This document shows, one piece after another, positions 35,394 to 55,798 of a stretch of DNA of 64,000 nt. Source of the stretch: Draconibacterium aestuarii (GTDB taxonomy: Bacteria; Bacteroidota; Bacteroidia; Bacteroidales; Prolixibacteraceae); contig JAPOHD010000007.1 in NCBI GenBank assembly GCA_026671195.1, positions 1 through 64,000 on the forward strand. The letters run 5' to 3'. How positions within the stretch are numbered: the first letter of the stretch is position 1; every line of letters begins with the position of its first letter. The notes beneath the pieces were generated by a model that was not told the DNA's origin, made no database searches, and saw only the letters and a program-made list of their open reading frames with translations. Made by a program: the position numbers and the translations under genes.

Positions 35394-36938
35394 TTATTCA
35401 ATCTTTCCCGGGTAGGTAGAGTTTGCTCTAACCGGCACCTGCATTAATCCAGCTTCTTTGGCACTGTCTGTTTTAGCCTTCATATCCTTTGCTGTATCTT
35501 CCGGATTTTGATACCAATCGCTGTCTATATGTGCCTCTTTCATTATTTCTAAAATCCGGTTTACAACTTCAGGATTTTCATTTGCAATATTCTTTCCCGA
35601 GCCAATATCATTTTTCAAATTCCACAGCTGTAATGAATCTGACGGATTATTTCTCATTCCAAACCAGTCTCCCATTCTAACCGCCTGCGACCGGGGAGTA
35701 AAAGTTCCACCTCCCCAATACAAATACTCATGATCTTCTTGTTTTTCAGGGGTACCATTCAAAAGAGGAACAAAACTAATTCCGTCATTTTCAGGCGCCT
35801 CAACTCCTGCCAGGTCACATGCTGTGGCCATAAAATCGTATAATACTACCTGATGATTTGTAGTTCCATGCGGAATGGTCCCCGGACAATAAGCCAACAT
35901 TGGAATACGCACACCTCCATCAAATGAAGCAAATTTCCCTCCTTTCCACGGACCTTTATTTTTAAATAACGGATCATCTTCCCAATGTTTTCTACCCATG
36001 TATCCACAGTGGGCATAACCGTTGTCGCTGGAAAATATAAAAATTGTATTTTCTGCAATACCCAACTCTTCGGTAAGGTCAACCAGATCTCCAACATGAC
36101 GATCTAAATGAGTCATCATTGCTGCCCACTCTTTGTGTTTCATTCCCCAGGGTTTGTCTTTGTATTCACCCAAATCTGGCGTAATACACGGCCCGTGTGG
36201 AAGCTGAGTTGCATAGTATAAAAAAAGCGGTTCATCTTTGTTTTCGGTAATAAATTCCAATGCCTTTTCATGAATCAAATCCTGCGAATTTTTGGCTTTA
36301 AAAGGTTCTTTTATTCCATTGGGGAGCAACTGACCATCTTCATTATAAACATTCAGTCCTTCTTCGCTATTGGTATGCGCATAACATTTTGCCATATCAA
36401 AACCATAGTTTTCAGGAATGGCAACTTGTTTTCCATTTTCCATCAAATAGTAAGGATAGAAAGTATGTGCACGCAATTGATCATAATATCCAAATGCATA
36501 ATCAAATCCCTGTTTATCCGGGGTTCCTTCCGTTCCTGGCAAACCAATCCCCCACTTACCCACAAAACCGGTTTTATAACCTGCCTTTTTTAGCATTTCA
36601 GCAACTGTGATATCATCATCCATTAAATGGTCTTGCATACGTGCCGAGCGGTTTAACCTGATGCGACTATGCCCCAAATGTTTCCCCTCCATAAGTGTTC
36701 CCCGCGATGGGGCGCACTCAGGAGCGGCACTGTAGGCTTCAGAAAAAAATAAACCACCATTGTACATTTTGTCGATATTGGGTGTTGTAAATTGATTCTG
36801 CCCTAAACAACTGAGATCGTAATAACTCATATCGTCAGCCAGAATAAAGATAATATTTGGCTGGCTGTTACTTAATTGATGCTCGTTTTTGCAACTGAGA
36901 AGTGCTATCAGCGCGAAATAGGTCAGTAGAATTTTCAT
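35394..36938 (-). CDS. Sulfatase (S1 family) lipoprotein
   Basis: 514 aa. Lipobox LLSC (C16) anchors it. The metal-binding DD is at 35-36 (ILADDM) and the formylglycine site is CAPSR at about 75-79, so an anaerobic- or FGE-type maturase elsewhere must activate it. GFVGKWGIG, HGPC and FSSDNGY complete the active-site set. It should remove sulfate esters from sugars in the periplasm. It lies at the far 3' end of the enzyme block and is 48 bp from the SGNH gene. Confidence 0.93.
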   Translation of the reverse strand: MKILLTYFALIALLSCKNEHQLSNSQPNIIFILADDMSYYDLSCLGQNQFTTPNIDKMYNGGLFFSEAYSAAPECAPSRGTLMEGKHLGHSRIRLNRSARMQDHLMDDDITVAEMLKKAGYKTGFVGKWGIGLPGTEGTPDKQGFDYAFGYYDQLRAHTFYPYYLMENGKQVAIPENYGFDMAKCYAHTNSEEGLNVYNEDGQLLPNGIKEPFKAKNSQDLIHEKALEFITENKDEPLFLYYATQLPHGPCITPDLGEYKDKPWGMKHKEWAAMMTHLDRHVGDLVDLTEELGIAENTIFIFSSDNGYAHCGYMGRKHWEDDPLFKNKGPWKGGKFASFDGGVRIPMLAYCPGTIPHGTTNHQVVLYDFMATACDLAGVEAPENDGISFVPLLNGTPEKQEDHEYLYWGGGTFTPRSQAVRMGDWFGMRNNPSDSLQLWNLKNDIGSGKNIANENPEVVNRILEIMKEAHIDSDWYQNPEDTAKDMKAKTDSAKEAGLMQVPVRANSTYPGKIE

Positions 36939-36986: not shown

Positions 36987-37706
36987 TTATTTTATTAATT
37001 CAGAGTAAACCAACTCCGCGATGGCACGGTATCCCTCTTTATTTGGGTGTACTCCGTCTTTTTCTGTAAACAATTCAGGCTTATGTTTTAAAGGTATATT
37101 CAGGTCGATAAAGCCCGTATTCTTTTCCTTTGCCACTTTTTTAACATACGTAATTAACTCCTGCAACCGCGGTTTCCTAACCGTTAAACCTTCAATACGA
37201 TCGGCATTTAGTCCGGGTGTTTCCAATACCATTGGCGAAGGTGCACATATCCAGATTTTGGGATTAGAAGGCCATGTTCGTAATGTATCAATCAAATCAC
37301 AATAATCATCTTCATATTCGTCTTTGTATTCCCAGCATTTACGATCACCACAGGTTCCATATCCACAGGTATCGTTCGTCCCCAAACTAATAATTACAAT
37401 GTCAGGATTGGCCTCTTTTATTTTGGGAAGCTGGTTCCAAACCGTAGGATTACCTTTTCGGATAAGTGTACAACTGCCAACTCCAAAATTTATTACCTGG
37501 TATTTATGTCCCAACAACAATTGTAATTGGGCCGGGTATGAATCTTTATCGCGGTTCACAAGGCGGGCGCCATATGTAATGCTATCTCCAATACAAGCCA
37601 CTTTTATTACTTTTTTATTTGTACTGCCCCCTTCACCAATATTTGGTAACAGTAGAAGCAACAACAGCAAACCTACCCATATCGGAAAATGCTTTTTCTT
37701 TGTCAT
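36987..37706 (-). CDS. SGNH/GDSL-family esterase
   Basis: 239 aa with a signal or anchor segment at about 8-21. Block I GDSITYG (S42), the block III SLGTND and the catalytic DGVHPN are present, so the triad is complete. A cysteine-rich insert just after GTND (TCGYGTCGDRKC, then YC) is unusual and could form disulfides or bind metal. Probably an acetyl-esterase acting on the same acylated sugar chain as the neighbouring sulfatases; specificity is unknown. Confidence 0.87.
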   Translation of the reverse strand: MTKKKHFPIWVGLLLLLLLLPNIGEGGSTNKKVIKVACIGDSITYGARLVNRDKDSYPAQLQLLLGHKYQVINFGVGSCTLIRKGNPTVWNQLPKIKEANPDIVIISLGTNDTCGYGTCGDRKCWEYKDEYEDDYCDLIDTLRTWPSNPKIWICAPSPMVLETPGLNADRIEGLTVRKPRLQELITYVKKVAKEKNTGFIDLNIPLKHKPELFTEKDGVHPNKEGYRAIAELVYSELIK

Positions 37707-37922: not shown

Positions 37923-39377
37923 TTACTTTTTATAGTGAGGATTGGCAAATGGCATTTGCGCATTTACTTCCTTTCTCCATGAATGAAGTAACGCGTTTAA
38001 TTCATTTGTTTTGTCCGGATATTTTTCGGACAAGTCATTCTTCTCGCTGATATCGTTTTTTACATCATACAATTCTACGTGCATGTCTTCATAAAATTCT
38101 ATCAACTTATAATTCCCCAACCTGACAGCACCAGATGGCCGACCTCCTAAACCACCGCTGTAATGCGGATAGTGCCAAAAAACAGGGCGCTCGCTAATCG
38201 GCTTTTTAAACAAGAGAGGTTTTAAACTTACACCATCCAATTGTTGCTGTTCAGGCAAATTAATCCCTGCCAAATCAATAATTGTAGGATAAAAATCGGT
38301 GCCTGTAACCGGCGAACTGCAACTACTGCCTGCATCAATGTGTTTAGGCCATCGAACCAACAATGGCTCACGTATTCCGCCTTCGTATAAATAGCCTTTT
38401 CCGGCCCGGAGTGGTAAATTAGAGGTTGGGATATTGTCGGTTTGATTACTGGTAGCCATTCCACCATTGTCAGAAGTAAAAATAACAATCGTATTTTCGA
38501 TTAGGCCAAGCTCATTGATGGCGGCAAGTAAACGGCCAACGTTTTCGTCCATGCTTTCAACCATGGCTGCATAATGAGGCATATTCTGGTGATTTTTAAA
38601 CCATGTGTTCCCTTCTTTGGAAAACTCTTCTCCGTGGTAATTCATCGTAGCTAGTTTTTCCTTATATTTTTTCACTTTTTCAGGTTTACCCTGCATGGGT
38701 AAATGCACCGTATAAAAAGACAAGTACGCAAAAAACGGCTCCGATTTATTTTGTTTTATAAAACCAATTACCTCATCGGTTAAGCGGTCGGTCAGGTACT
38801 CTCCTTCGTACCCATCAGTTAACTGAGGATTCTTGTAAGGCGAAAAATATCCTCCGGCAGGATGTCCGGTTTTATTTCCCCCAATATTAATGTCAAATCC
38901 CTGGTACTGCGGATAATATTGTTCTTCCTCTCCTACATGCCATTTCCCTGCAAACATGGTTTTATATCCGGCATCTTTCAATGCTTCGGCAATGGTATAT
39001 TCTTCCAAATCAAGTTGCAGTTTAAAGGGATGCGATGCCAGCTTTTGGTCTTTATGCGGGCCCCAATGCCTGTTTCCTGGAATGTAATCGGTAAGATTTA
39101 GGCGGGCCGGATATTTTCCACTAACAATTGCGGCTCTCGAAGGCGAACATACCGGGCAGGCGGCATAAGCATCGGTAAATATCATACCCTCCGATGCAAG
39201 TTTGTCGATATTGGGAGTCTCATGATAAATACTGCCATTATAACCTAAGTCGGTCCATCCGAGATCGTCAACCAGAATAAAAACCACATTTGGCTTGTTT
39301 TCAGTCTTTTGTTTACATTCACCATAAAAAGGCAACAAACAAACTACAACCAGTATTATGAGAAATAACTTGTACAT
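37923..39377 (-). CDS. Sulfatase (S1 family), second copy
   Basis: 484 aa with a signal peptide (about 1-20). The metal pair is in ILVDDLGW at about 34-41, the formylglycine site is CSPSR at 77-81, followed by GKYPARL, FAGKWHVG and FTSDNGGM. Its sequence differs enough from the sulfatase at 35394 to suggest a different position specificity on the sugar. It directly follows the GH29 gene by 17 bp and so is co-transcribed with it. Confidence 0.93.
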   Translation of the reverse strand: MYKLFLIILVVVCLLPFYGECKQKTENKPNVVFILVDDLGWTDLGYNGSIYHETPNIDKLASEGMIFTDAYAACPVCSPSRAAIVSGKYPARLNLTDYIPGNRHWGPHKDQKLASHPFKLQLDLEEYTIAEALKDAGYKTMFAGKWHVGEEEQYYPQYQGFDINIGGNKTGHPAGGYFSPYKNPQLTDGYEGEYLTDRLTDEVIGFIKQNKSEPFFAYLSFYTVHLPMQGKPEKVKKYKEKLATMNYHGEEFSKEGNTWFKNHQNMPHYAAMVESMDENVGRLLAAINELGLIENTIVIFTSDNGGMATSNQTDNIPTSNLPLRAGKGYLYEGGIREPLLVRWPKHIDAGSSCSSPVTGTDFYPTIIDLAGINLPEQQQLDGVSLKPLLFKKPISERPVFWHYPHYSGGLGGRPSGAVRLGNYKLIEFYEDMHVELYDVKNDISEKNDLSEKYPDKTNELNALLHSWRKEVNAQMPFANPHYKK

Positions 39378-39394: not shown

Positions 39395-40792
39395 TTAGTT
39401 TTTTGTATTAAAAACGGTGAAAGTTTTGATTATTGGTTCGTCTTCCGACTCAGAAATTTTTAACCGAACCGAAGAAACTTCCAGCTCATCAAAACGATGA
39501 ACAAATTTATGACCGATACACGATCCTTCAAAAATTGGGTCCCAACCTTTTGACGTTTTTCCTTCGAGTACAAATTTCCTGATCCGTTCTCCTTTCGTAA
39601 TGTCTTCCATTAAAACAATCTGATTTATTTTTTGCTTTTTCGGAAGTTTTAAGATTAGCTTTTCTCCTGTTCCTGATGCAGATGCGACTGGATTTGAAAA
39701 CCTTCTTGTTATTTCATCGCCCAATTCTTTCAGGCGTTTCACATCGTCTTCAGGCATTAAACCTCTGTTGTCAGGAGTGAGTCCCAGTATAAGTGAAGTA
39801 TTGTGTCCAACCGAATTACAATACATATTCACCAGGTTTTCAAGTGGATAAATATGTTCCTCATCACTGGGTTCCCAAAACCACTCGTGCCGTCCGTTGT
39901 ATCCACGCAATGGGGCGTCACTCATAGCCGGCATATAATGATGCCCATTTGGATCTCCTTCTTTCAATAATTGAAAATTATTTTTAAAGATTGTTTCCTG
40001 ATTCGTTGAATGTGAAAAAGGATAGGGAAATGTTCCCCAGCAAGGGTAAGGAACTATCCCGGATTCTGATCCTCCCCATCGCATATCGGCACGTTGCGTA
40101 TTGTGATAAAAAATACAATTGGACTGGTGTTTCTCAAAAATTCTCAGAACATCAGGGCCACCTTTCTCCGGTCCATGAGCCCCCCCGTCGAACCAAACAA
40201 TGGCCAGATCGCCATAACGCGACATCAATTCTTCAACCATTCCTTCGCATATACGGTTATAATGTTTTTGACGATTTTCTGCAAATTTGCCTTCACCATG
40301 CACTTTAAAATCGTGAATCCCATAAAACGAATTCCAACGGATACCAATATAAATTCCGGGTAAAACATCGTATTTCCGGCACGATTCTACAAAATCTTTT
40401 ACAATATCGCCTTTCCCATCGCGCCATTTAACGGCCTTCAAACAGTAAGGATTTACATCGCTTTGATAAAGCGCAAATCCTGTTTCGTGAGTAGCAGTGA
40501 GAATGGCTATTTTACAACCGGCATCTTTTGCTGCTTTCACCCACTGGTCGGTATCCAGTTGTTTCGGATTAAAAATATTGATGTCTTCAACCGGTGTAAT
40601 TCTGTTTTTCTGCTGGTTGTATTTTACGCCATCGAAAACATGCAAGTCGTAATGAAAAACGGCTACAAGTTCAGCATTTTGCCAGTTTAACTGGGCTTGT
40701 GTTGGAATAGGTACTTCCGCCTGATTTTGTGCCAATAGTGGAGAAAAAGCAATCAAAAATAAACTTAGTATTCCAATAAATTTTTTCAGCAT
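39395..40792 (-). CDS. GH29 alpha-L-fucosidase, copy A
   Basis: 465 aa with a signal peptide (about 1-22). The barrel carries the nucleophile D202 in IVWFDGGAHG, and the surrounding motifs HETGF, HYNRICEGMVEEL and SDAPLRG are shared with the paralogue at 46523-47926. The C-terminal about 110 residues form a beta-sandwich (GEKLILKLPKK, then GKTSKGWDPIFEG). It hydrolyses terminal alpha-L-fucose in the periplasm. Only 4 bp separate it from the beta-propeller enzyme gene, so the two are in one operon. Confidence 0.92.
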   Translation of the reverse strand: MLKKFIGILSLFLIAFSPLLAQNQAEVPIPTQAQLNWQNAELVAVFHYDLHVFDGVKYNQQKNRITPVEDINIFNPKQLDTDQWVKAAKDAGCKIAILTATHETGFALYQSDVNPYCLKAVKWRDGKGDIVKDFVESCRKYDVLPGIYIGIRWNSFYGIHDFKVHGEGKFAENRQKHYNRICEGMVEELMSRYGDLAIVWFDGGAHGPEKGGPDVLRIFEKHQSNCIFYHNTQRADMRWGGSESGIVPYPCWGTFPYPFSHSTNQETIFKNNFQLLKEGDPNGHHYMPAMSDAPLRGYNGRHEWFWEPSDEEHIYPLENLVNMYCNSVGHNTSLILGLTPDNRGLMPEDDVKRLKELGDEITRRFSNPVASASGTGEKLILKLPKKQKINQIVLMEDITKGERIRKFVLEGKTSKGWDPIFEGSCIGHKFVHRFDELEVSSVRLKISESEDEPIIKTFTVFNTKN

Positions 40793-40796
40793 ATTA

Positions 40797-41876
40797 CTAT
40801 TTTTTGAATTTTAAGACATAACTCACGGTACAATCTCCTCCGTATATATTAGTACCCGACGGCAAATACACATAGGCTGGCTTCCCATCTTTCAGTACTA
40901 TTTGCGGACGTTCGAACTTGGCATAACTTCTGTTTTGGGGGCCGTAATGAACAGCTGCCTTTTTCATATCCACATCGGTATAATCATTAATCCGGTGAAA
41001 TCCTTTTTCGTAGGTATCAAAATGAATTCCATCATCGGAAGTCCACAAAATACCCCCACCGGCTTCAATTATTCCATGGTTATCGGTGGTGAGCAAAGCA
41101 AATTTTCCTTTGTACATAAAAGCATATCCATCTTCTATGTTCCTGTCGTTAGCCGTTACAGGGAAAGGCATTTGAACATACGGACCCTCAATATTTTCAG
41201 CAACTGCCAGTCCCATTCTTGCTTTTTCTGATTTAAAATAAAGAAAATATCCGCCATCGGGATGTTGTAAAAATGCAGGGTTGTTAACGCCATTGCTTGC
41301 CTTATAATTCCAGTAATCTTTGTTTCTGGGAGGCTTCAAAACCAAACCATCTTCGCCTGCTTTTTTCCAGGGGCCGTACAAACTTTCTGAAACCGAAAGG
41401 CAAATATACTGGTTTGAAGGATGTTCTTCAATGCCATCGTTCACAATATAAAACAGGGCATATAAACTATCCACCTTATGAATGGCAGGATTATGCGGCG
41501 CATAAACCGCTCTGTTTTTCACCTTATGAATAGCGGGATTACAGGGAGCTTTTCCCTCTTTATCCGTTTCTATATCTCCCTTAATGGCAACGTCGGAAAA
41601 TACAAAAGGACCTTCGGGCGAATCGCCAACATAATGAGCAATTTCACTGTGTGTGCGCCATCCCGGATCTACTTTTAGTTCTCCGGGCCAGCGAGCTACA
41701 AAAAGGTGCACTTTCCCATCGTCACCCAAAATAGGAGAAGTTCCCCAAATGGTGTATCCCGGTTCTTCAACCGCTTTACCCACAAACGCCCATTTATCTG
41801 CAAAAGATTTTTCATTTTGTGAAAATCCGTTTGGTACAATAAAAAAAGCACATAAGCTTAATAAAATATATTTCAT
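40797..41876 (-). CDS. Five-bladed beta-propeller glycosidase (GH43/GH117-like)
   Basis: 359 aa with a signal peptide (about 1-19). Repeated blades with the GYTIWGTSPILGDDGKVHLF start, NPAFLQHPDGGYFLYF and LAVAENIEGPY point to the GH43/GH117 type five-bladed propeller. The exact family and sugar cannot be settled by eye; the setting suggests fucose, galactose or xylose side chains. The motif NPAIHKV occurs twice, 16 residues apart (about 109-132), in a short internal direct repeat. It is co-operonic with GH29 copy A and lies 175 bp beyond the esterase-EEP fusion. Confidence 0.75.
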   Translation of the reverse strand: MKYILLSLCAFFIVPNGFSQNEKSFADKWAFVGKAVEEPGYTIWGTSPILGDDGKVHLFVARWPGELKVDPGWRTHSEIAHYVGDSPEGPFVFSDVAIKGDIETDKEGKAPCNPAIHKVKNRAVYAPHNPAIHKVDSLYALFYIVNDGIEEHPSNQYICLSVSESLYGPWKKAGEDGLVLKPPRNKDYWNYKASNGVNNPAFLQHPDGGYFLYFKSEKARMGLAVAENIEGPYVQMPFPVTANDRNIEDGYAFMYKGKFALLTTDNHGIIEAGGGILWTSDDGIHFDTYEKGFHRINDYTDVDMKKAAVHYGPQNRSYAKFERPQIVLKDGKPAYVYLPSGTNIYGGDCTVSYVLKFKK

Positions 41877-42051: not shown

Positions 42052-43698
42052 TTATTCAAATTCAGCTACTACAGGATAATGGTCGGACAGTAACCAATTA
42101 TCTGCTCCATTACAAACTTTGGCATTAATACATTTGGTACTAAGTCCCGGCGACACAAGTATATAATCGATACGTTCCATTCGCGACATTAATTGTTCAT
42201 TTGTTTCGTTATTTACCGGGGCCAAAACCCGTCCCGGGAAACTTCCTCGTTCTTCCAGTCCGCTCGTATAATCTCGTACAACATCATACAAAGGATGTGA
42301 TAGAAACGATGATAATACAGCATAATCCAGGTTACCGTTCAACTCCAGATTTCCATTTAATCCTTTGTCATTATTCATTTCTTTTAACCGGTTAAGAAAA
42401 TATCCTTCCGGCTCATACAAATCGGCATCAAAAGGCGAGTGCGCATTAAAATCGCCAAGTACAATATATTCAGAACTCTCGTGCTTAATTTCCTCCAGTT
42501 TATTAAGTAAAATGTTTGCTTCCTCCCTGCGACGTTTAATGCTTCCCGGATGAAGGTGGACCACAAAAAAATCGATGCCACTGGTTACACAATGAAGCGC
42601 ACCATGATGCATTCCTTCACGAATTTTTTCTTTCAAAACAATGGGATATCTTGAGGTTAATCCAACAGAATATCCGTCCTCTTTTAATAACACAGAATAG
42701 TTATGCCCCCAGCTTTGGGCATCTTCCGCCAATTTCTCCGGTGTATATTTACAAAGTTCCTGCAAGGCCACCACATCAGGTTGTTGCATGTTTACCCATT
42801 GCTGCAACTTCCCCCGGCGAAGCTCATCATTTCCCCAGTCAAAACCATTCCAAATGTTATAAGTAAGCGCTTTAAATTTGCCCGTATGTTTAATTGTACT
42901 TTCCTCCCCTGCATTTAAAAGGTTGAATGCGTTAAAAATCCGGCAACCATGTTCCACCAAACCATCAGGAGTTAAATGCGTAGCATCGGCTTTGGGCAGA
43001 CCATACATACTTGTGTAAATGATATTTTTATCCTCCTGTGCAATTTTCTTTTGTGCCTCTACAACCGCAGGCCTGTCCTTCATATAACTGTGTTGCTCAT
43101 CTACACCCAGTATTATCTGAAGCTCAGCATCTTTAACAACGTTTGTGCGCAAATCATATATCAGGGTTTTCAGATTAGAGTAATAAGCATTGGCAATTTC
43201 ATCGTTCACACCATCCGATTCTCCCTGTATCCATATAAATCCTCGGATATTTACCTTATATCCCCTTTTCTTCAATTTTTGAATGGCGGGTTTCAAATCC
43301 TTTACCATACTGTCATAAATCCCGCCTTCTCCGGGAGCTTTCCAGTCATGGGCAAGCCCGGTTCCTCCCAAACAATATTTGAATATGGCCGGATTAAAAC
43401 CGGCATTTTTCAACTCCCGGGCAAAACTAACTTCCGGGCCAAAATGACCTGACGGAAAGCGCCCTTTTTGAGGCTGCATTGTTCCCCACTCTCCATTGGA
43501 ACTTGTATTCCTGAAAAAAGTCCAGTTTAATAATATCGATTTATCCAAGTCTTGTTTGTCAAATGGATATTCCGCTGCATTCCCCATCCATCCTTGTGCG
43601 TTCGACTGACCAGCCCAAATAAAAAGGTCGATATTTTCCTGTGCTTTTAACAGAAAGGGCAACATCAATATGATCGCAACTAGTTTTATTTTATACAT
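42052..43698 (-). CDS. SGNH/sialate-O-acetylesterase-like domain fused to an EEP phosphodiesterase domain
   Basis: 548 aa with a signal peptide (about 1-19). Residues about 22-265 are a SASA/DUF303-type SGNH esterase: GQSNAQG with S32, QGESD at 158-162 and DATH at 238-241. Residues about 275-548 are an endonuclease/exonuclease/phosphatase fold: TYNIWNG at 279, ALQEL at 311, VVHLHPGS near 380, GDFNAH at 415 and SDHYP near 540. Both active sites look complete. An acyl-esterase and a phosphodiester or phosphomonoester hydrolase on one exported chain would suit a decorated polysaccharide; this is inference. It is 24 bp downstream of GH95. Confidence 0.85.
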   Translation of the reverse strand: MYKIKLVAIILMLPFLLKAQENIDLFIWAGQSNAQGWMGNAAEYPFDKQDLDKSILLNWTFFRNTSSNGEWGTMQPQKGRFPSGHFGPEVSFARELKNAGFNPAIFKYCLGGTGLAHDWKAPGEGGIYDSMVKDLKPAIQKLKKRGYKVNIRGFIWIQGESDGVNDEIANAYYSNLKTLIYDLRTNVVKDAELQIILGVDEQHSYMKDRPAVVEAQKKIAQEDKNIIYTSMYGLPKADATHLTPDGLVEHGCRIFNAFNLLNAGEESTIKHTGKFKALTYNIWNGFDWGNDELRRGKLQQWVNMQQPDVVALQELCKYTPEKLAEDAQSWGHNYSVLLKEDGYSVGLTSRYPIVLKEKIREGMHHGALHCVTSGIDFFVVHLHPGSIKRRREEANILLNKLEEIKHESSEYIVLGDFNAHSPFDADLYEPEGYFLNRLKEMNNDKGLNGNLELNGNLDYAVLSSFLSHPLYDVVRDYTSGLEERGSFPGRVLAPVNNETNEQLMSRMERIDYILVSPGLSTKCINAKVCNGADNWLLSDHYPVVAEFE

Positions 43699-43722: not shown

Positions 43723-46143
43723 CTATTTCCTATTTTCTTCTTTCAGCTTGGAATCAAACAATTTTGACTCTCCGGATTTCATGTTTATTTCGAGCACATT
43801 ATCTCTGTATTTTAACATGCAAACCCCGTCTTGCTTTGCTTTAATCCCGGCATTTACCAACCGGCCATTCTCCCACTTGATATCTACTTCGAAATTACCA
43901 CGAGCCCGCAATCCTTTTACCTCTCCATTACTCCATTCCAGGGGCAATGCAGGAAGCAAATGAACCAGCCCTGTGTGGCTTTGAACCAACATTTCAGCAA
44001 TACCTGCCGTTGCGCCAAAATTCGCATCCATTTGAAAAGGGGGGTGTTGTCCAAACAGATTCGGTGAAGTACTTTTTGCTATTACTGTATTTAAACTTTC
44101 CTTTGCTTTCTGCGCCTCGTGCAGCCGTGCATATTGACTAATCAGCCATGCAGCACTCCAGCCGGTATGTCCACCACCGTTTTCAATCCGATAGTCTAAT
44201 GATTTTTTGGCCGCCATTGCCAGTTGTGGTGTTTTTTCCATACTAATCTGAGATCCCGGATGTATGGCAAATAAATGAGAGATGTGACGATGCCCGGGTT
44301 CCACCTCAGGAAACTCCTCTGCCCATTCCATCAACCGGCCATCGGAACCAATTTCAGGACCTGCCAACCTGTTTTGTGCATTTTTAATCCTTTCAATAAA
44401 TTCATCATCCCTGTTCAACTCATTTGAAGCGGAAATAAAATCAGTAAACAGTTGCCAGATTACTTGTTGGTCGTGTGCCGGCCCCATGCTGATCTGACTC
44501 CGGGTTCCGTCCGGAGCAACAAATGTATTTTCAGGAGAAACAGCTGGTCCTGAAACCAGTTTCTTAGTTTCAGGATGCTCTACCAGCCAATCGAGGTAAA
44601 ACTCAACCGAGCCCCTTAAAACCGGATACATTCTGGTTAAAAATTCTTTATCGCCAGTAAATGCAAAATGTTCCCAGATATGTGAACAAATCCATGCTCC
44701 GGCCCCGGTATGCATTCCCCATGATGCACTTTCGCCGGGAGAAGTATACCCCCATACGTTTGTTATTGGATGAACCACCCAACCCTTTTTGTGGTATTGA
44801 GTAGCGGCTGTTTTTTCACCCGGAGCAACCAATGATTCAGTTAATTCGAACAAGGGTAAATGAATCTCCGGAAGATTGGTTACCTCTGCCAGCCAATAAT
44901 TCATTTCAACATTTACATCGGTATGATAATCGCCATTCCACGGAGTTTGAATTTTATTGGCCCAAATACCCTGCAAATTGGCCGGCAACGTACCCGGTCT
45001 TGATGAAGAGATGAGAAGATAACGCCCGTACTGAAAGAGGAGTTCAGCCAAATGCGGATCGGTTAACGTTTGTTTGAAATTTCTTACCCGCTCATCGGTT
45101 GGGACTGTTGTAATTTCACCAGGCGCTATATCAAGGCTTACCCTTTTAAAATAGCCCTGATATTCTTTTTGATGCGCCGCAAATAAATCGTTGTACGATT
45201 TTTGGGTTGCCTGTTCTATATTATTGTTGGTTATTGTCTCATAGTCCCGTCCTTTGTACTCAGGATATTTTAACTGATAATCGGTAGAAGCCGATAAATA
45301 CAGAATTACCTCGTCAGCTTTTTCCACAACTAATTCAGCCCCTTCACAACTAACTTTTCCATTCTTATTTACGGCTTTCAACCGCGCCACATATTCTAAT
45401 CCATTCCCTCCTTTTCCGCTTGAAAGGGCCCCTTTCATAACCAACTGATTGTTTTGAGTAAACGTTTCAGAACGCTCGGGACGGTTCATGGAGCAGGTAA
45501 AAGAAATCTGCCCCGGTTTATCGGCGGTAAAACGGGCAACCATTACCTGATCGGGCTGACTGATAAATATTTCGCGACTATAATTTACTCCATCCTGCGT
45601 GTAGTTTATCCGAACAATTGCATTCTCGAGGTCGAGCTCGCGATAATAATTATCATACTCCGGGTTATTTTCAAAATCGATCCATAAATCACCCAGTGTC
45701 TGAAAGCACCCAAATGGCACATTTGCACCATTACCATGCCCCGATCCTTCGCCCTTACAAATTTGTGTTTTATTCGTCAGTTCGGTGGCTTCTTTGTATT
45801 TCCCGTCAAACAAGAGCTGCCTGATTTTTCCCTGTTCTCCGGCAGCTTCCGGATTATCACTTTCCTGGTTGCTTCCCGACCACATACTCTCTTCACTCAG
45901 CTGAATACGTTCGTGATTGACATCACCAAAAACCATCACTCCCAAAGAACCATTTCCCAGCGGTAGTGCTTTGAGCCATTCCGGATCATCTTTCCACCCG
46001 TTTTTATCATCGGGAACTGATGCATTTGCAGGTTGATTGTACCATAGTTTCAATTTCGATTCCGGTTGTTTTAAATTCTGGGTTTTACACGATAAAAAAA
46101 GTAGTAAAACAGCCGGAAAAAAATAAGTTTTAATTATATGCAT
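43723..46143 (-). CDS. GH95 family alpha-L-fucosidase lipoprotein
   Basis: 806 aa with lipobox FLSC (C19). The N-terminal beta-sandwich (GH95 'WYNQPA' start, LPLGNGSLGVMVFG at about 54-67, ERIQLSEESMWSG) precedes an (alpha/alpha)6 barrel with YHTDVNVEMNYW, HTGAGAWICSHIWEHF and PFQMDANFG. It cleaves alpha-1,2-linked fucose, or alpha-L-galactose in some members, by inversion. It is first in the transcript that continues through the esterase-EEP, propeller, GH29 and sulfatase genes. A promoter -7 box lies 133 bp before its ATG. Confidence 0.93.
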   Translation of the reverse strand: MHIIKTYFFPAVLLLFLSCKTQNLKQPESKLKLWYNQPANASVPDDKNGWKDDPEWLKALPLGNGSLGVMVFGDVNHERIQLSEESMWSGSNQESDNPEAAGEQGKIRQLLFDGKYKEATELTNKTQICKGEGSGHGNGANVPFGCFQTLGDLWIDFENNPEYDNYYRELDLENAIVRINYTQDGVNYSREIFISQPDQVMVARFTADKPGQISFTCSMNRPERSETFTQNNQLVMKGALSSGKGGNGLEYVARLKAVNKNGKVSCEGAELVVEKADEVILYLSASTDYQLKYPEYKGRDYETITNNNIEQATQKSYNDLFAAHQKEYQGYFKRVSLDIAPGEITTVPTDERVRNFKQTLTDPHLAELLFQYGRYLLISSSRPGTLPANLQGIWANKIQTPWNGDYHTDVNVEMNYWLAEVTNLPEIHLPLFELTESLVAPGEKTAATQYHKKGWVVHPITNVWGYTSPGESASWGMHTGAGAWICSHIWEHFAFTGDKEFLTRMYPVLRGSVEFYLDWLVEHPETKKLVSGPAVSPENTFVAPDGTRSQISMGPAHDQQVIWQLFTDFISASNELNRDDEFIERIKNAQNRLAGPEIGSDGRLMEWAEEFPEVEPGHRHISHLFAIHPGSQISMEKTPQLAMAAKKSLDYRIENGGGHTGWSAAWLISQYARLHEAQKAKESLNTVIAKSTSPNLFGQHPPFQMDANFGATAGIAEMLVQSHTGLVHLLPALPLEWSNGEVKGLRARGNFEVDIKWENGRLVNAGIKAKQDGVCMLKYRDNVLEINMKSGESKLFDSKLKEENRK

Positions 46144-46522: not shown

Positions 46523-47926
46523 CTAAATATTAGGAACATCAAAGACTGAAAACTCCAAAATATGAGGTTCACCCTTTGCTTCCAAAACTGTTAGCCGAAC
46601 TGCCGAAACTTCCATATCATCAAACCGATGGATGAATTTATGCCCAATACAGGAACCTTCAAATATCGTTTGCCAGCCTTGTTTTGTTTTTCCTTCCAGT
46701 ACAAACTTCCTAACCCGCTCACCTTTTGAAATATCTTCCATTAAAACAAGCTGGTTTACGTTTTGCTTTTTCTGAAGTTGGAGGTTTATCTTTTCCCCTT
46801 TTCCGGCAGCGGTGGCAATCGGGCTTGAAAACCTGCGGTTTATCTCATCACCAAATTCTTTCAGGCGTTTTACATCAGGTTCGGGCATTAAGCCATCGGG
46901 GCCCGGCGTAACGCCAAGAATCAAGCTGGTGTTGTGGCCTACCGAATTGTAATAGATATTCACCAGCTTATCAAGTGGATAGATAATATGTTCGCGTTCA
47001 GGTTCCCAAAACCAATCGTGTCCGCCATGTCCACGCAAAGGGGCATCACTCATGGCATGCATGTAATATCTTCCATCGGGATCGCCGGTTTTCAGCAGCT
47101 GAAAATTATTGGCAGCAATCTCCTTTTTAGCCGATTCTCCGGCACCTGTTGAAACATACGGGAATGTTCCCCAGCAAGGATAGGGAACGGTACCTGTTTC
47201 GCTGCCTCCCCAACGCATATCGGCGCGTTGCAGGTTGTGGTAAAACAAACAGTTGGCCTGGTGTTTTTCGAAAACCGACAATACATCGGGGCCACCCTGT
47301 TCCGGACCGTGTGCACCACCGTCGAACCAAACCATGGCCCAGTCGCCGTATCTGGTAAAAATCTCCTTTACAATTTTTTCAATCATGATGTTGTAGTGCT
47401 TTTGCCGGTTTTGGGCAAAAGTATTATCGCCATGCACTTTAAAGTCATGAATACCGTAAAAAGCATTCCAACGTGTACCAATATATACACCGGGAAGAAT
47501 ACCGTATTTTTCGCAGGCCGTTTTAAAATCGCGCAGAATATCGCCTTTACCATCCTGCCATTTAAGGGCTTTCATACAATAGGGTGTGGCATCGCTCTGA
47601 TGGAAAAAGAATCCGGTTTCGTGACTTACAGTAAAAATGGCGATTTTAAATCCACCATCTTTTAACGATTTAATCCACTGGTCCATATCGTATTTTTGCG
47701 GATTGAAGGCATTGTAATCCTTCACCGGAGTAATACGTGCTTCTTTTTGCACATAGAATTCACCATCGAAAACGTGCAAATCCCAGCAAACCAGGGCTGC
47801 CAGTTCGGCATTTTGCCACTGAATTTGGGCAGGGGTTGGGATGGGTACATCATTTGAGATTTGTGCATATAACACAACCGTAGTCAGCAAAAACAGACTC
47901 AGAATACTGATTATTTTTTTGAACAT
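46523..47926 (-). CDS. GH29 alpha-L-fucosidase, copy B
   Basis: 467 aa from the ATG at 47926 (MFKKIISILSLFLL), chosen because it gives a clean signal peptide; the open frame runs 56 codons further up without one. The nucleophile region MVWFDGGAHG (D202) and C-terminal beta-sandwich match copy A at 39395 residue for residue in most motifs, so they are paralogues. Its first 537 bp are also duplicated, decayed, at 52113-52645. It has its own leader of over 180 bp, and a terminator separates it from the upstream GH106-like gene. Confidence 0.92.
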   Translation of the reverse strand: MFKKIISILSLFLLTTVVLYAQISNDVPIPTPAQIQWQNAELAALVCWDLHVFDGEFYVQKEARITPVKDYNAFNPQKYDMDQWIKSLKDGGFKIAIFTVSHETGFFFHQSDATPYCMKALKWQDGKGDILRDFKTACEKYGILPGVYIGTRWNAFYGIHDFKVHGDNTFAQNRQKHYNIMIEKIVKEIFTRYGDWAMVWFDGGAHGPEQGGPDVLSVFEKHQANCLFYHNLQRADMRWGGSETGTVPYPCWGTFPYVSTGAGESAKKEIAANNFQLLKTGDPDGRYYMHAMSDAPLRGHGGHDWFWEPEREHIIYPLDKLVNIYYNSVGHNTSLILGVTPGPDGLMPEPDVKRLKEFGDEINRRFSSPIATAAGKGEKINLQLQKKQNVNQLVLMEDISKGERVRKFVLEGKTKQGWQTIFEGSCIGHKFIHRFDDMEVSAVRLTVLEAKGEPHILEFSVFDVPNI

Positions 47927-48110
47927 ACTATATATTCTGAACCAGAGCGCGATGGAATTGTCAGAATATGAACATGCGGAGAATGTTCCCGGGATTTGAA
48001 TTAAGTTGATCAATTTCGCATGCATCTTTTTAAGATTAAGTTGATTTATAAATATACCAATTAAGTTTTTTTTATGACAATACCATCCAGACACGCAATG
48101 ATAAAGATAA

Positions 48111-48169: not shown

Positions 48170-51118
48170 CTATTTCATTATAGCTTCTGATATAACAACC
48201 GGTCCGAGTAAACCTGATGGTTCCAAAGGAATATTTGTTATTGGACGCCCCCGAAAATCATGTGACAATACAATATTGGTTTTTGTTATCTGCTTTTCAG
48301 AAGGATACAGCTCATCGCCGGCAACCCGATTATACCATGAATTGACAACTTTGATTTCAAGTTGATTGTCACCCATTTTAAGCTCATTAGTAATATCTAC
48401 ACGGAAGGGTGCAGTCCAAAGAATTCCTTTGTACTGGCCATTAATTGTTACTTCGGCAATACCAACATCTTTTACACTTCCCAACTCCAAATAGTAAAAC
48501 TCGTCGTCCTGTGGTTTGTTTTGAAAAGTAAATGATTTAGTGTATACTGCTTCTCCGGAATAATATTTAATATCCAAATCCTCATGTTTCGTCCAATCCA
48601 TCAGTTCAGGAAAAAGAACAGATGCAGGTCCCCCCAGTTTGGGATCAAAACTTACTTTCCATTCGCCTGAAATCTTTTGCAGAGTTTTATAATCAGCAAA
48701 ATTCGTTGTTTCAGAGCCCTGTTTATGGGTTGAAACTGGTTGATTAAAAACTACCATTATTGCCTGACAGGGTTCCAATGTCAGAGGAACTGTGGTTACT
48801 TCATTTTTCTGAGAAAAAGCCAATGCTGACCTGATTTCACCGGTTAAAGCATCCCAGAACTCAGGTTGTTTCCCTGAAACCCGGAAAGAACAATTGATTT
48901 TACGGCGTTCTGTAGTTTGATTGGTAACAAAATAAACATCAAGCTCTCCAACGGTATAGTGAATATAATCGAAATCCTTTTTACTATCACTCTCAGCCAC
49001 ATCAAAATCAGGTAAAATGCCTTTTGACAGAAGATATTTCCTTGCAGTTACGCCCCAGCGAACAGTTCCCTTAGCATAGTTTTTTTCTCCCGTTGCAGAA
49101 ACTGTATTCCCCCATATTTTATCTGCTAAAGTCTTAAATTCTTGCTGAGCTTTTTCACCACCAACAACACTGACCATCTGCTCTGGTTTATTTCCCAAAA
49201 CAGTAGCACCATTTTGCAACAGTTCTTCCACCTTCCTCAAAATAGCAAGCGAAAGCACATTATGATCGGGCAAAACCAACACACGATATTCTACTCCTCC
49301 CGGAACCACAATTTTGCCGTTGCGCATTTTTAATTGTAAAAAAATAGTTTCGTCAGTTACATCGTAATCAAAACCGGGCATTACACCTGCCGGATCGGAA
49401 TGTTTATACGGGAATACATTGGGAACATGGTCACCATAATAGTACAGTACATCGGCAACAAATTTTCCTTCTTGCACAATCGATTGTATGCGATGCATGT
49501 AATCGATAAAAGCTCCGGATTGATTCCACCACGTTACCTGCGGATTTACGTGTGTTCCTGCAAAATATTCCTGTCCGGGCAAGCCCATTTCGGGAGGAGA
49601 AGCTGTAAATGTGTGAAAATACATGCGGTTTAATCCAGCACAAATTTCATGATCGAATGCAGACTTCTGATCGCGCCAGAGTTCATCGTTCCAATGCGGC
49701 CCAATTGTAGTAAAGGATTCAGCACCGACAATTTTTTTCCCGTAAATGTGAGCGGCCGATGAAGCCTGTTTCAAAAAGAAACGGTTTTCGTCAAGCGGAC
49801 GATGCGGCGAAGGCGACCAAAATTCGCTCATTACAATATCGTTGAATCCATAATTTTTAATTCCGTCCATTGGCCCGGCATGTGGTCCGGCAGACTCGGG
49901 TTGAATGCCCATATTGTATTTGTGTGCATATTCCTGAAAACGTGCATAATGGTTGTACGCGACCAAATCGCCAATGGTTTTTCTAAAGTCGGCAAGAAAA
50001 GCATTCGATGTATTGATATCATTAACTATATATCCGGCAACAATTGGCAAATAATTCTTTAGATCATATCCGCGATAGTTAGTAAATTCTTCTGCAAATT
50101 TATCGGTCCAGTTCATACCACCACACTCCCAGCTATCGGTTTCCATGTATTTTAAAGTAGTTCCCACATGAGCGCCGGCCTTTTCAAAAATTGGTTCAAC
50201 AACATCATTCCAATAAAAATCAAAAGCATCTGTGCTCATATAATCCAATACGCGTCCCTGCCAGTCACCACTCGAAGTTGAAACATGAGCATCGGTACAA
50301 GTATACCCGATCCGCATTACCACCCACTCTCCTGCAGGCGCATCCCAATTTAAAATACCATCAGAATTCATTTGAGAGGTCAAATCAATGATCTCGTCTT
50401 TATTTATAATAAAAGTTGACTGATTATTTGAAGGTCTTCTGGTTTTAGGCTCATTAAAAAGAAGAAAGCGGCAATCGGGTGCCGATCCTCCCAATTCGTG
50501 AAACCCCAGCTTATAATCCAGATCAGAAATAGTTTCTGTTGTTTTGTTTTTATCACTTACCGGAAGTGCAAGCACGGCCACATCTTTGTAAAAATCGTCT
50601 CTTGTGTTTGGTTGTTCTATTCGTTTGGAAATCTTTTCCCATCCTTTAACTTTAGTTTCAGAAAAAGTTATTTGTTTGGCAGCATATTTTGGAGTTACAC
50701 GTGGTCCTCCCAGGTTCCATCCACTTTGGATATTAAATCCCATCTCCAGCCCAAGTCGTTTTGCTTCATCCATAGCAAAAACAAATAGTTCGCTCCAATC
50801 ATCAGAACCAAACAGCGGCCCGTTCGGAATGTCTTTATTTCCTCTTTGATTATGGCCACCTGCATCAAAAATCATGGCTCCCTGAAAGTTTCGGGATTTC
50901 ATGGCTTCCAGATCTTTGGTGATGGTTTCTTGAGTAACATTTCCATTAAGCCACCACCACCAGCAATTTACACCTGTTACTCCCGGAGGTGATTGAAAAT
51001 TACTGACCAGATCCTCATAGCTTATTGCATGGGGATTTTCAATATTTTTATCGGACTGAGTTTTACACGATATAAATACCAGAAAAAGAGCAAATAGTAA
51101 ACACAAATTAGTTTTCAT
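48170..51118 (-). CDS. GH106-like alpha-L-rhamnosidase lipoprotein
   Basis: 982 aa. Lipobox FISC (C18). The hallmark tryptophan run NCWWWWLNGNVT at about 51-62 and DLEAMKSRNFQGAMIFD start a GH106-type barrel; GFNIQSGWNLGG, SEFWSPSPHRP and a long central barrel follow. The C-terminal domain (GSVKDVGIAEVTINGQYKG; VDITNELKMGDNQLEIKV) is a jelly-roll of the GH2 sugar-binding type. It releases L-rhamnose from pectin- or algal-type glycans in related enzymes; the exact linkage is unknown here. A hairpin after the dead susD lies just upstream of its ATG. Confidence 0.82.
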   Translation of the reverse strand: MKTNLCLLFALFLVFISCKTQSDKNIENPHAISYEDLVSNFQSPPGVTGVNCWWWWLNGNVTQETITKDLEAMKSRNFQGAMIFDAGGHNQRGNKDIPNGPLFGSDDWSELFVFAMDEAKRLGLEMGFNIQSGWNLGGPRVTPKYAAKQITFSETKVKGWEKISKRIEQPNTRDDFYKDVAVLALPVSDKNKTTETISDLDYKLGFHELGGSAPDCRFLLFNEPKTRRPSNNQSTFIINKDEIIDLTSQMNSDGILNWDAPAGEWVVMRIGYTCTDAHVSTSSGDWQGRVLDYMSTDAFDFYWNDVVEPIFEKAGAHVGTTLKYMETDSWECGGMNWTDKFAEEFTNYRGYDLKNYLPIVAGYIVNDINTSNAFLADFRKTIGDLVAYNHYARFQEYAHKYNMGIQPESAGPHAGPMDGIKNYGFNDIVMSEFWSPSPHRPLDENRFFLKQASSAAHIYGKKIVGAESFTTIGPHWNDELWRDQKSAFDHEICAGLNRMYFHTFTASPPEMGLPGQEYFAGTHVNPQVTWWNQSGAFIDYMHRIQSIVQEGKFVADVLYYYGDHVPNVFPYKHSDPAGVMPGFDYDVTDETIFLQLKMRNGKIVVPGGVEYRVLVLPDHNVLSLAILRKVEELLQNGATVLGNKPEQMVSVVGGEKAQQEFKTLADKIWGNTVSATGEKNYAKGTVRWGVTARKYLLSKGILPDFDVAESDSKKDFDYIHYTVGELDVYFVTNQTTERRKINCSFRVSGKQPEFWDALTGEIRSALAFSQKNEVTTVPLTLEPCQAIMVVFNQPVSTHKQGSETTNFADYKTLQKISGEWKVSFDPKLGGPASVLFPELMDWTKHEDLDIKYYSGEAVYTKSFTFQNKPQDDEFYYLELGSVKDVGIAEVTINGQYKGILWTAPFRVDITNELKMGDNQLEIKVVNSWYNRVAGDELYPSEKQITKTNIVLSHDFRGRPITNIPLEPSGLLGPVVISEAIMK

Positions 51119-52645: not shown

Positions 52646-52837
52646 TAGATTAGGTCATTAGATAATTATATCGTTTAATCCATTACGAAAACCTGAACCG
52701 GTCTTAACAATCTAGAAGAAAGTGACTCCTTAAATCGAAACGAGCTTCACTGCCCCTCCTTTGCAAGACGACTCCTTCGGAGCACTCCAATTACAAATTG
52801 GCGTTAGCGGATTATTAGGGATCAAGTTTTCGTATAA

Positions 52838-53675: not shown

Positions 53676-54965
53676 CTAAAATTTACGATATTTAAAATCC
53701 AATAATTTATTGGCTTCTGGTTCAACAAATTTTGCAGAAGCAATATCCCAGTGTAATTTTTTATTAGGGAATCGGTTTCCAATTACTCCTAAAAGAATTG
53801 ATTCGGTTAAATGAGCGGCATAATCAAATGATGCACTACATTTATCTTTACCCATGCAGGTATCAACAAATTGATGGTAATGATCTGCTTTTGGAATTTC
53901 GGGGAAATCAATTGGTTCGTATTTTTTATTTACGATTAATTTGGGGTAATCCCAATGTGGCAATAGCAAATTGCCTTTTTCACCAACAAACATAGCTCCC
54001 TGGTCGGGAAGAATCTCACCATTTGGCAAGCTCAAATCTTTATGCTTTTTAGGTGCCCCCGGGCCATCATACCAAACCCATTTTAATGTTTCGGTTGTAT
54101 AACCAGTACCCGGGAATTCATACTCCACAACATTATGTTCGGGATGCCCAAAACCGTTAGGTTTTCTACACTTGGTTTTTATTGTTTTTGGCACATCCAA
54201 TTCCAGGGCAGTATAAGGAGTATCAAAAATATGAACTCCCATATCACCAAGAGTTCCGCAACCGTAATCTAGAAGTTTACGCCAATTCCCCGGATGATAT
54301 ATTTTATCTTTATACGGACGTTCTGGCGAAGTTCCCAACCAAAGATTCCAATCTAAGTTTGCAGGTACCGGATCGCTACCAGTAGGTGCAGAGCCATCGT
54401 ATCCCCAATTTTTAGGCGACCATGCTCTTACAGTGCTCACTTTTCCAATAATTCCAGACTTAATTAACAGCACAGCTTTTAAGTACATATCGCTGGAATG
54501 ACATTGAATCCCCATTTGAGTTATCAGATTATTCTCTCTAGCATATTTTCGCATAGATCTTGCTTCGGAAACATGATGAGTTAGCGGTTTCTGACAATAA
54601 ACCGGCTTGCCCATTTGCATTGCCAGAATTGATGCTGGAGCATGCGTATGGTCTGGAGCTGAAACAACAACTGCGTCAATTTCGCTACGCATTTTATCGA
54701 ACAACACACGGTAATCGGTAAATAATTTTGCTTGAGGAAACATCTTTTGTGCCGCACCTAAACAAACTGAATCAACATCGCATAAAGCGGTTACTTCAAC
54801 CATAGGATGAGAGGCTATTGATTTGAGGTCAGACAGCCCCATTCCGCCAACTCCAATATGTGCGGTTCTTAATTTTCCGTTTTTAGTAAGTGCCCAAACC
54901 GATGACGGCAACATGGTAATCGAGGCAAAAGCTGCTGCTCCTTTTAAAAAATCTCTTCTTCTCAT
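53676..54965 (-). CDS. Tat-exported Gfo/Idh/MocA family oxidoreductase
   Basis: 429 aa from the ATG at 54965 (MRRRDFLKGAAAFAS), which gives a twin-arginine signal and hence export as a folded, cofactor-loaded protein. The Rossmann motif IGVGGMG is at about 37-43, VSAPDHTHA follows, then the family lysine in YCQKPLTHHV. Members oxidise or reduce sugars using bound NAD(P); recent work ties such enzymes with DUF1080 proteins to 3-keto-glycoside chemistry. It follows the DUF1080 gene by 33 bp. Confidence 0.88.
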   Translation of the reverse strand: MRRRDFLKGAAAFASITMLPSSVWALTKNGKLRTAHIGVGGMGLSDLKSIASHPMVEVTALCDVDSVCLGAAQKMFPQAKLFTDYRVLFDKMRSEIDAVVVSAPDHTHAPASILAMQMGKPVYCQKPLTHHVSEARSMRKYARENNLITQMGIQCHSSDMYLKAVLLIKSGIIGKVSTVRAWSPKNWGYDGSAPTGSDPVPANLDWNLWLGTSPERPYKDKIYHPGNWRKLLDYGCGTLGDMGVHIFDTPYTALELDVPKTIKTKCRKPNGFGHPEHNVVEYEFPGTGYTTETLKWVWYDGPGAPKKHKDLSLPNGEILPDQGAMFVGEKGNLLLPHWDYPKLIVNKKYEPIDFPEIPKADHYHQFVDTCMGKDKCSASFDYAAHLTESILLGVIGNRFPNKKLHWDIASAKFVEPEANKLLDFKYRKF

Positions 54966-54998
54966 TTTTATTAAATTTAATAAATCAGTTGGCAAAAA

Positions 54999-55718
54999 TT
55001 ACAATTCTCTGATTTTAATCATCCTAAACTGAGTTAAACCACCATGGTCTTGTAAACCAATATGGCCTTCTTTTGCCATACCATAGTGCGTGGCATCCTT
55101 CCACTTTCCAGCTGCTTTTTGCGCTTGCCATTTATCGCTCCACAATTCATATTCTACCACCTTTTTCCCATTTAGCCAGTGTTCAACATGTGGATTTTTC
55201 ACTACAATTCGTGTTGTATTCCAATCTCCAACAAGCGCCACTTCGGCCCCAACAGGCGCTTCCATTGAATAATTTGAACCTGTGTACTGAGAATCTTTCA
55301 GTTTAGTTGGCCAACCTTTGTCATCCAATAATTGGTATTCCGGACCTGATTCGTAAATTTTTTCGGCAACTCCTTCCTTAGCATGATAAAATATACCTGA
55401 ATTACTTTCTGGTGATATTTTCCATTCTACATACAATTCAAAATTCGTATATTCTTTTTTGGTAATAATATCTCCTCCATGATCTGAACCAATCCCGGAA
55501 TTGTTCAAAATGCCATTTATGACTTTCCAGCCTGTTACTTCTTCTCCATTATACTTTTTCCATTTGTCAATACTTGACCCATTGAAAAGAAATTCCCAGG
55601 TTTCTCCTGATTTTATAATGGTAGCACTTACATCCTTATTCTTTTTTTCACTTGAAAATGAACAGGAAAACAAGGCGATACTCACTACGGATAAAAGCAA
55701 AAATGAAAACTTTCTCAT
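54999..55718 (-). CDS. DUF1080 (3-keto-disaccharide hydrolase-like) lipoprotein
   Basis: 239 aa from the ATG at 55718 (MRKFSFLLLSVVSIALFSC, lipobox C19). A concanavalin-like jelly roll carries the DUF1080 marks EWKISPESNSGIFYHA, PEYQLLDDKG, EHWLNGKKVVEYE and GHIGLQDHGG. The family includes proteins acting on 3-keto-glycosides. With the following Gfo/Idh enzyme it would form an oxidise-then-cleave pair in the periplasm. It lies between susD and Gfo/Idh, downstream of a hairpin. Confidence 0.88.
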   Translation of the reverse strand: MRKFSFLLLSVVSIALFSCSFSSEKKNKDVSATIIKSGETWEFLFNGSSIDKWKKYNGEEVTGWKVINGILNNSGIGSDHGGDIITKKEYTNFELYVEWKISPESNSGIFYHAKEGVAEKIYESGPEYQLLDDKGWPTKLKDSQYTGSNYSMEAPVGAEVALVGDWNTTRIVVKNPHVEHWLNGKKVVEYELWSDKWQAQKAAGKWKDATHYGMAKEGHIGLQDHGGLTQFRMIKIREL

Positions 55719-55740
55719 AATTTTAATATTTTTAAATATA

Positions 55741-55798
55741 AAAAAATACCGGCATGACACTTCTTTTTATTTTACACAAAAGATGTGGCTGCCGGTAC
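55741..55798 (-). terminator. Hairpin with T-run after susD (attenuator)
   Basis: On the minus strand GGTACCGGCAGCCAC pairs with GTGTCATGCCGGTA, followed by seven T's. It lies 16 bp after the susD stop. It probably lowers read-through to the DUF1080 and Gfo/Idh genes relative to susCD. Confidence 0.75.

Follow-up and report, generated by a model that had tools for sequence, protein, structure and literature searches.

Within the EEP superfamily, the solved protein 4c1r was deposited as a mannosyl-6-phosphatase, and this Bacteroides enzyme is presumably part of a yeast-mannan PUL. GlcNAc-PDase, of an EEP subfamily, removes phosphorylcholine and phosphoethanolamine from GlcNAc-6; it clusters with PGAP2IP and Cwh43p, and changes to its metal residues lowered activity, glutamate excepted (PMC10704324). 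Both enzymes are precedents for EEP action on a glycan and qualify the original prediction for the present locus, which knew of no described polysaccharide pathway needing an acyl-esterase and an EEP hydrolase on one exported chain.

Two activities on one chain are also described for PUL or Bacteroidetes esterases, namely CE15-GH8 (PMC8417218) and fused acetyl-feruloyl esterases (PMC7110780). The protein described here resembles these in that respect and lies in a PUL, but as far as the abstract openings show, neither of the two couples an acyl-esterase with a phosphoesterase. No publication linking EEP and PUL was found in the open-licence literature, judged by titles and abstract openings, where the slashed family name is not searchable. 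The locus was found in the window, the whole analysed stretch of 64,000 nucleotides from Draconibacterium aestuarii (contig JAPOHD010000007.1, positions 1 to 64,000).

The two domains of the fusion protein

The fusion gene (42052..43698, minus strand) appears in the ORF listing as a single unbroken frame of 548 codons, and its product of 548 residues carries two Pfam domains above their cut-offs, which bears out the predicted fusion of an SGNH acyl-esterase to an EEP domain. Residues 1–20 (43639..43698, minus strand; N-terminus MYKIKLVAIILMLPFLLKAQ) resemble a signal peptide by eye, and the protein is likely to be an exported chain, as had been supposed. The SASA/SGNH esterase domain (residues 23–258; 42925..43632, minus strand) matches PF03629 with near-full model coverage (E 1.5e-25, 90.5 bits against a cut-off of 24.8). 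The EEP domain (residues 278–540; 42079..42867, minus strand) matches Exo_endo_phos PF03372 over model positions 1–225 of 225 (E 6.8e-18, 65.6 bits against a cut-off of 24.5), and was found at the same place in a second PF03372 scan, that of the organism's own genome. This genome has one match to the whole fusion protein and four further PF03372 genes, one of which (L066) is short, ExoIII-like by eye and without a signal-like start.

The catalytic sets of both domains are complete, as originally predicted. In the EEP half, all 88 aligned rows share N281, E314, H381, D416, N418, D511, D539 and H540. In the SASA half, S32, N33, G111, Q158, E160 and D238 are kept in 37 of 37 rows and H241 in 36 of 37. 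The full-length PF03372 match together with the metal and catalytic residues places the C-terminal half in the EEP superfamily, and the GQSN serine block and the D..H block, present in both Pfam match and alignment, place the N-terminal half in the SASA family. Loss of catalytic residues, which the original prediction had considered, is ruled out by this conservation, and both halves are predicted to be active enzymes. The roles of the listed residues are presumed from the two families and from motif order. Six of the EEP residues correspond by their order to the metal-site residues named in PMC10704324. H365, outside the usual EEP residue set, is likewise invariant (88 of 88).

The SASA half has the full SGNH set of the SASA-family carbohydrate esterases (PF03629) and is similar to the putative esterase 2apj, which it matches at 1.4e-06 in a single-sequence PDB search. 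It differs from that family in that the SASA of this clade is fused to an EEP domain or to a GH43-like protein (GH43L). No pointer to sialic acid was found for the window's SASA domain.

Gene content of the PUL

The fusion gene lies inside a PUL, in agreement with the original prediction; a SusC/SusD pair and CAZyme genes are present, all on the minus strand. The SusC/RagA TonB-linked porin (57598..61107; TIGR04056, 1.5e-236) is followed by a SusD-like lipoprotein (55814..57586), assigned from this position and from NCBIfam SusD-family models that match below their cut-offs (best 2.4e-11). Downstream of the pair, a one-strand run, its genes 4 to 379 bases apart, begins with GH106 (48170..51118; PF17132, 2.4e-166), GH29a (46523..48094; PF01120, 2.8e-22; 3gza, 1.2e-165), whose listed GTG start is, by eye, probably too far upstream, and GH95 (43723..46143; PF22124, 1.1e-169), which ends 24 bases from the fusion gene. 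The fusion gene is followed by GH43L (40797..41876), which falls below the PF04616 cut-off and has a close relative joined to this SASA in 6 of the 120 matches listed, and by GH29b (39395..40792; PF01120, 6.9e-28), relatives of which stand near the EEP in other loci. The run continues with a first S1 sulfatase (37923..39377; PF00884, 2e-62), a GDSL/SGNH esterase (36987..37706; PF13472, 2.8e-23) and a second S1 sulfatase (35394..36938; PF00884, 8.8e-48).

Genes for a GFO_IDH_MocA oxidoreductase (53676..54995; PF01408, 4.1e-15) and a 3-keto-disaccharide hydrolase domain protein (54999..55760; PF06439, 1.3e-48) stand between SusD and the CAZymes (53676-55760, minus strand) and may serve to break down some of the sugar oxidatively. 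In the sister locus L133 of the same genus the CAZyme genes come directly after SusC–SusD. A GH29 gene remnant in the window (52083-52651, minus strand) consists of two pieces in different frames, which match GH29a residues 56-163 (66%) and 154-245 (85%).

The GH43L profile reaches the 3,6-anhydro-alpha-L-galactosidase 3p2n at 8.1e-08. The nearest solved structure to the first sulfatase is 9fo1 (5.4e-148), a kappa-carrageenan sulfatase labelled S1_16; for two B. theta S1_16 enzymes, 4-sulfated Gal and GalNAc are given as substrates (PMC10154612). The glycoside hydrolases, the GH43L profile and the sulfatase content thus suggest that the target glycan is probably rich in fucose or L-galactose and carries sulfate and acyl groups. 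Among the window genes scanned there is no lipid-cleaving gene and no phosphoesterase besides this EEP, unlike in nine other loci of the EEP clade described below.

Distribution and origin of the fusion

A homologue search in which 8000 candidates sharing most words were scored gave 619 relatives, and architectures were counted in the 120 listed of these. The SASA-EEP architecture accounts for 24 of the 120 and a SASA-EEP-GH43-like triple fusion for five. Full-length fusions number 29 among the 120 listed, at 62–89% identity and from several sources, two of which are named after Aestuariibaculum sediminum and Rhodohalobacter sulfatireducens. Two of the 120 are SASA-SASA (one in part) and five are partial. 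Carrying both activities on one chain, a need implied in the original prediction, is no fixed requirement, since in 78 of the 120 the EEP is present but no SASA is matched, and six are SASA-GH43L, in which SASA is joined instead to a relative of the GH43L encoded by the next gene. A SASA stump was apparently left before the EEP in three shortened homologues (P0031 and P0034 by BLAST, P0033 by eye). Two of the 78 carry other partners: in P0071 the same EEP is fused to a calcineurin-type phosphoesterase (PF00149), and in P0099 to an N-terminal part that has no Pfam label and looks alpha/beta-hydrolase-like by eye.

A second fused copy occurs in the same genus, inside a similar PUL of genome G1145. 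An assembly artefact, the other objection foreseen in the original prediction, is rejected because of the 29 full-length relatives from several sources and this second genome; the domain-architecture search that had been proposed thus upheld the fusion.

The fusion is rare in whole genomes, yet real and recurrent. In the family sample, either half was matched at 1e-60 in 15 of 140 genomes and the full fusion in two, the window's and G1145; an earlier family draw at 1e-40 gave 12 of 120. Matches were found in 5 of 395 genomes of the phylum sample, one of them another fusion (G322), in 3 of 295 of the order sample and, at 1e-100, in 1 of 395 of the class sample, which is the window's own genome. 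Family f7, to which G253 belongs, gave 14 of 299 genomes at 1e-55, with no full fusion and two SASA only, and family f25 gave 1 of 92, which is G322 itself. The window's genome is included in these counts, family f7 excepted. A DNA-pattern scan of genome contigs gave a single fragment at a contig end (L002).

In a quick LG+G4 tree of 88 EEP domains, in which long branches meet and standalone database rows are thinned to every third, nine changes of fused state are required and at least four are forced by starred branches. A single origin of the fusion is rejected by this tree.

Partner genes in related PULs

Two genomes of the window's genus, G1145 and G1139, carry the sister PULs L133 and L135. 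The outer genes are 95–99% identical between the two and comprise SusC (96%), SusD (97%), GH29b (98%), the sulfatase (98%), as well as sigma-factor-like and FecR-like genes. The central genes GH29a, GH43L and EEP are 83–89% identical, and this difference hints at cassette exchange between the sister PULs. L133 contains the SASA-EEP fusion, a GDSL esterase and an extra GH29. L135 contains the EEP alone, with neither esterase and without the extra GH29 in the stretch. Because the contig of L135 breaks off directly behind the sulfatase, the rest of G1139 was searched: no other match to the fusion protein was found at 1e-60 and none to the L133-type GDSL esterase at 1e-10. The GDSL esterase is present inside the PUL in both G1145 and the window's genome. 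These data indicate that both acyl-esterases go together and the EEP stays.

A similar PUL in G048 (L031) carries SASA-GH43L and a GDSL esterase and, over the 19 kb covered, no EEP; G048 has an EEP on another contig (L024). The EEP, alone or fused, adjoins GH43L in L021, L025, L026, L052, L133, L135 and L137, and GH29 genes lie in the same stretch in all seven except L052. L022 combines an EEP with GH29, sulfatases, GH95 and GH20, without GH43L, and in L032 the triple fusion is accompanied by two GH29, GH95, two sulfatases and a GDSL esterase. The most economical interpretation is that one type of PUL has two optional jobs, the cleavage of acyl groups and that of phosphoesters, which are independent of each other and combined on one chain where both are needed; the repeated change of fused state in the tree agrees with this.

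Relation to characterised EEP enzymes

By profile, the best-scoring solved relatives of the clade EEP are of the exodeoxyribonuclease III/AP endonuclease type (2jc5, 1.7e-09), followed by 3g6s, an EEP of unknown function (8.6e-09). ExoIII types are also the best NCBIfam matches, but the window protein reaches only 44 bits against the cut-off of 99.05 of the ExoIII equivalog model TIGR00633. It further differs from exodeoxyribonuclease III in being exported-looking, esterase-fused and set in a glycan neighbourhood. A housekeeping ExoIII is rejected on account of the equivalog cut-off and of the separate short ExoIII-like EEP in the genome.

The mannosyl-6-phosphatase matches in the clade profile's PDB list are 4c1r (3.9e-04) and 3mpr (4.5e-04). 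4c1r shares the EEP superfamily with the window's EEP, but is named a phosphomonoesterase and is only remotely similar, being absent from the single-sequence search with the window protein at E up to 0.1.

The likeness to GlcNAc-PDase lies in a predicted secreted EEP with metal residues in the same order, and GlcNAc-PDase acts on a sugar phosphodiester. The GlcNAc-PDase assay was coupled to added beta-hexosaminidase, and GH20 is found near 4 of 27 loci of the window's clade. GlcNAc-PDase differs in belonging to another subfamily, the PGAP2IP/Cwh43p cluster, and the available text of PMC10704324 mentions no SGNH fusion for it. With the PGAP2IP-type family PF23226 as a stand-in for that cluster, the window protein gave no match at E up to 1; its EEP is therefore said to work like GlcNAc-PDase, not to be one.

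Gene neighbourhoods of the EEP clade

As a control for the neighbourhoods of 27 clade EEP loci, 40 stretches were drawn at random from the same genomes; other PULs would make a stronger control. The 27 leave out the window, the SASA-only L031, L036, L054, L060, the 3.2 kb contig of G105 (L009) and L128-L137; L025, L032, L037 and L056 are shorter stretches near contig ends. A second phosphoesterase (a second EEP, calcineurin type or NPP) lies within ~9 kb in 9 of 27 clade loci versus 0 of 40 random stretches, the latter count being biased downwards because the HMM seeds were drawn from the test loci. GH20 was found near the clade EEP in 4 of 27 loci versus 0 of 40. Neither SusC (9/27 versus 10/40) nor SusD (7/27 versus 6/40) is enriched.

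Pfam annotation of the immediate neighbours, unbiased by the seeds, gave EEP 6, Metallophos 5, GH29 7 and sulfatase 11 of 106 genes, one of 107 having been dropped for a run of X. Among 108 control neighbours, four genes each from 27 of the 40 control stretches, there are two sulfatases and at most one each of EEP, Metallophos and GH29, upper bounds that arise because 25 of the 171 families are listed for the control.

Individual loci vary. L023 has the order SusC, SusD, a 4c1r-type EEP (1.9e-64 to 4c1r), GH20 and the clade EEP. L057 contains GH20, a sulfatase, GH123, the clade EEP, a PGAP2IP-type EEP (above the Pfam cut-off), GH92, a symporter and GH130, and may represent an N-glycan breakdown locus, which it resembles. 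None of the searched families was found near the EEP in L029, L037, L053 and L061; in L053 the EEP's neighbour is a tyrosyl-tRNA synthetase. In L033 (7286-8923) and L059 (10023-11645), the clade EEP adjoins a protein in which a different type of EEP is fused to a laminin-G-type domain.

Possible phosphonate-related loci

In genome G1049, a clade EEP that is 54% identical to that of the window belongs to a run of genes on one strand (L055/L126) consisting of SusC, SusD, NPP, a metallo-beta-lactamase-like protein, a PbfA-type lyase, a purple-acid-phosphatase-like protein, a metalloenzyme, the EEP, an endoglycoceramidase-like GH5 and an alkaline phosphatase. The lyase scores 718 bits with the PbfA model, against a cut-off of 525. 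The paralogous-group model PRK06082 scores nearly as high as, or above, the PbfA model on these lyases, so this lyase may be a phosphoethanolamine lyase or catalyse another reaction. The GH5 is above the PF18564 cut-off and reaches 143 bits with NF051847, far below the cut-off of 700.

L119 and L121 have a very similar run that lacks the EEP and the GH5, and L123 has part of it, without the metalloenzyme gene. This recurring SusC–SusD locus of L119, L121, L126 and partly L123 is apparently a locus for phosphonate or phosphoethanolamine utilisation. A second lyase copy in L123 adjoins GH92 and an EEP of another type. In L124 the lyase has the same direction as a phospholipase-C-type gene, GH20, a sulfatase and GH123, the last three of which are also together in L057; two operons may meet here, since a solute-binding-protein gene separates GH123 from the lyase. 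The PbfA substrate was first isolated from Acanthamoeba polysaccharides (PMC8154272). Given these lyase contexts and the Acanthamoeba origin, enzymes of the clade could plausibly act on esters of phosphonate or phosphoethanolamine.

The window's own genome has no PbfA-type lyase above the cut-off (best 220 bits versus 525), and the window's EEP itself is thus not tied to phosphonates. Of 26 genomes that carry the EEP clade, the window's among them, 5 have PbfA above the cut-off at the thresholds used, versus 3 of 32 genomes that lack the clade, too weak a difference to claim a genome-wide phosphonate trend; within family f7 the counts are 5 of 12 versus 2 of 15. A PbfA-type lyase stands in the same stretch as the clade EEP in one of the 26 genomes (G1049).

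Discussion

The reading that we favour, with a probability of roughly 0.55, is that the fusion protein is an exported, two-headed remover of decorations, in which the SASA half would cut an O-acyl group and the EEP half a phospho- or phosphono-ester on the same glycan, in the manner of GlcNAc-PDase. The target of the PUL would be a sulfated glycan rich in fucose (or L-galactose). Its O-acyl ester, most likely O-acetyl, would be hydrolysed by the SGNH/SASA half. The EEP half, as a divalent-metal phosphoesterase, would split off a substituent that one of this glycan's sugars bears as a phosphodiester or phosphonate ester. Removal of both groups would open the chain to the GH29, GH95, GH43-like and GH106 enzymes, and the sulfatases and the GDSL esterase would likewise clear other groups. 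We infer from the shared chain and PUL that the two halves act on one glycan. No documentation of phosphate on such a glycan was found in this analysis. The original prediction had named a phosphorylated or acylated glycan as a possible target, and a glycan that is both would fit the gene content best.

Other functions of the EEP half have to be weighed against this. It is unlikely to be a sugar phosphomonoesterase, like the Bacteroides mannosyl-6-phosphatase, instead of a diesterase. The shared superfamily, the presence of 4c1r and 3mpr in the clade profile's PDB list and the close 4c1r homologue beside the clade EEP in L023 would suit a phosphatase, but that same neighbour suggests that in L023 the phosphatase role is taken by a different EEP, and the window's EEP is only a distant relative of 4c1r. 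Somewhat less likely still is a sphingomyelinase-like cleavage of a phosphosphingolipid or glycolipid headgroup by a PUL feeding on glycolipid. This would suit L055/L126, where the EEP directly adjoins the endoglycoceramidase-like GH5 in a run with NPP, phosphatases and the PbfA-type lyase, whereas the closest relatives of the window's protein mostly lie beside GH29, GH43L or sulfatase and the window genes scanned include none that cleaves lipid.

About as improbable as the lipid reading is an extracellular nuclease that degrades DNA of biofilm or detritus, or yields phosphate. ExoIII types do top both the PDB profile and the NCBIfam matches; against a nuclease stand the low score with the ExoIII model (44 bits versus 99), the four other EEP genes of the genome, among them the short ExoIII-like one, and neighbourhoods that often hold glycan and phosphoester genes. 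The reading of extracellular DNA as a substrate, allowed for in the original prediction, is accordingly disfavoured by gene context. Invariant clade residues beyond the usual set, such as H365, could indicate that the EEP half no longer hydrolyses phosphoesters but some other ester, or that it does no more than bind sugar. This is very improbable, since none of the eight expected metal and catalytic residues varies in any of the 88 rows.

An extension of the favoured decoration-removing reading to the whole clade is doubtful, though less so than any of these alternatives. The EEP clade might be an unrecognised family of Bacteroidota glycan phosphono-/phosphodiesterases that act on phosphonoglycans, stripping glycans and glycolipids of aminoethylphosphonate, hydroxyaminoethylphosphonate or phosphoethanolamine, in at least one bacterium next to a PbfA-type lyase of the same run, the window's SASA-EEP being the form for acylated, fucose-rich, sulfated glycans.

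If the favoured reading is true, a PUL-borne EEP clade predicts the presence of such groups on the fucose-rich sulfated glycans that these bacteria meet, and the clade would supply tools for detecting these decorations. The division of labour can be tested directly on the sister PULs, one of which has the esterases while the other lacks them. Polysaccharide breakdown would then be linked to phosphorus recycling in these bacteria, and perhaps to phosphonate in some relatives.
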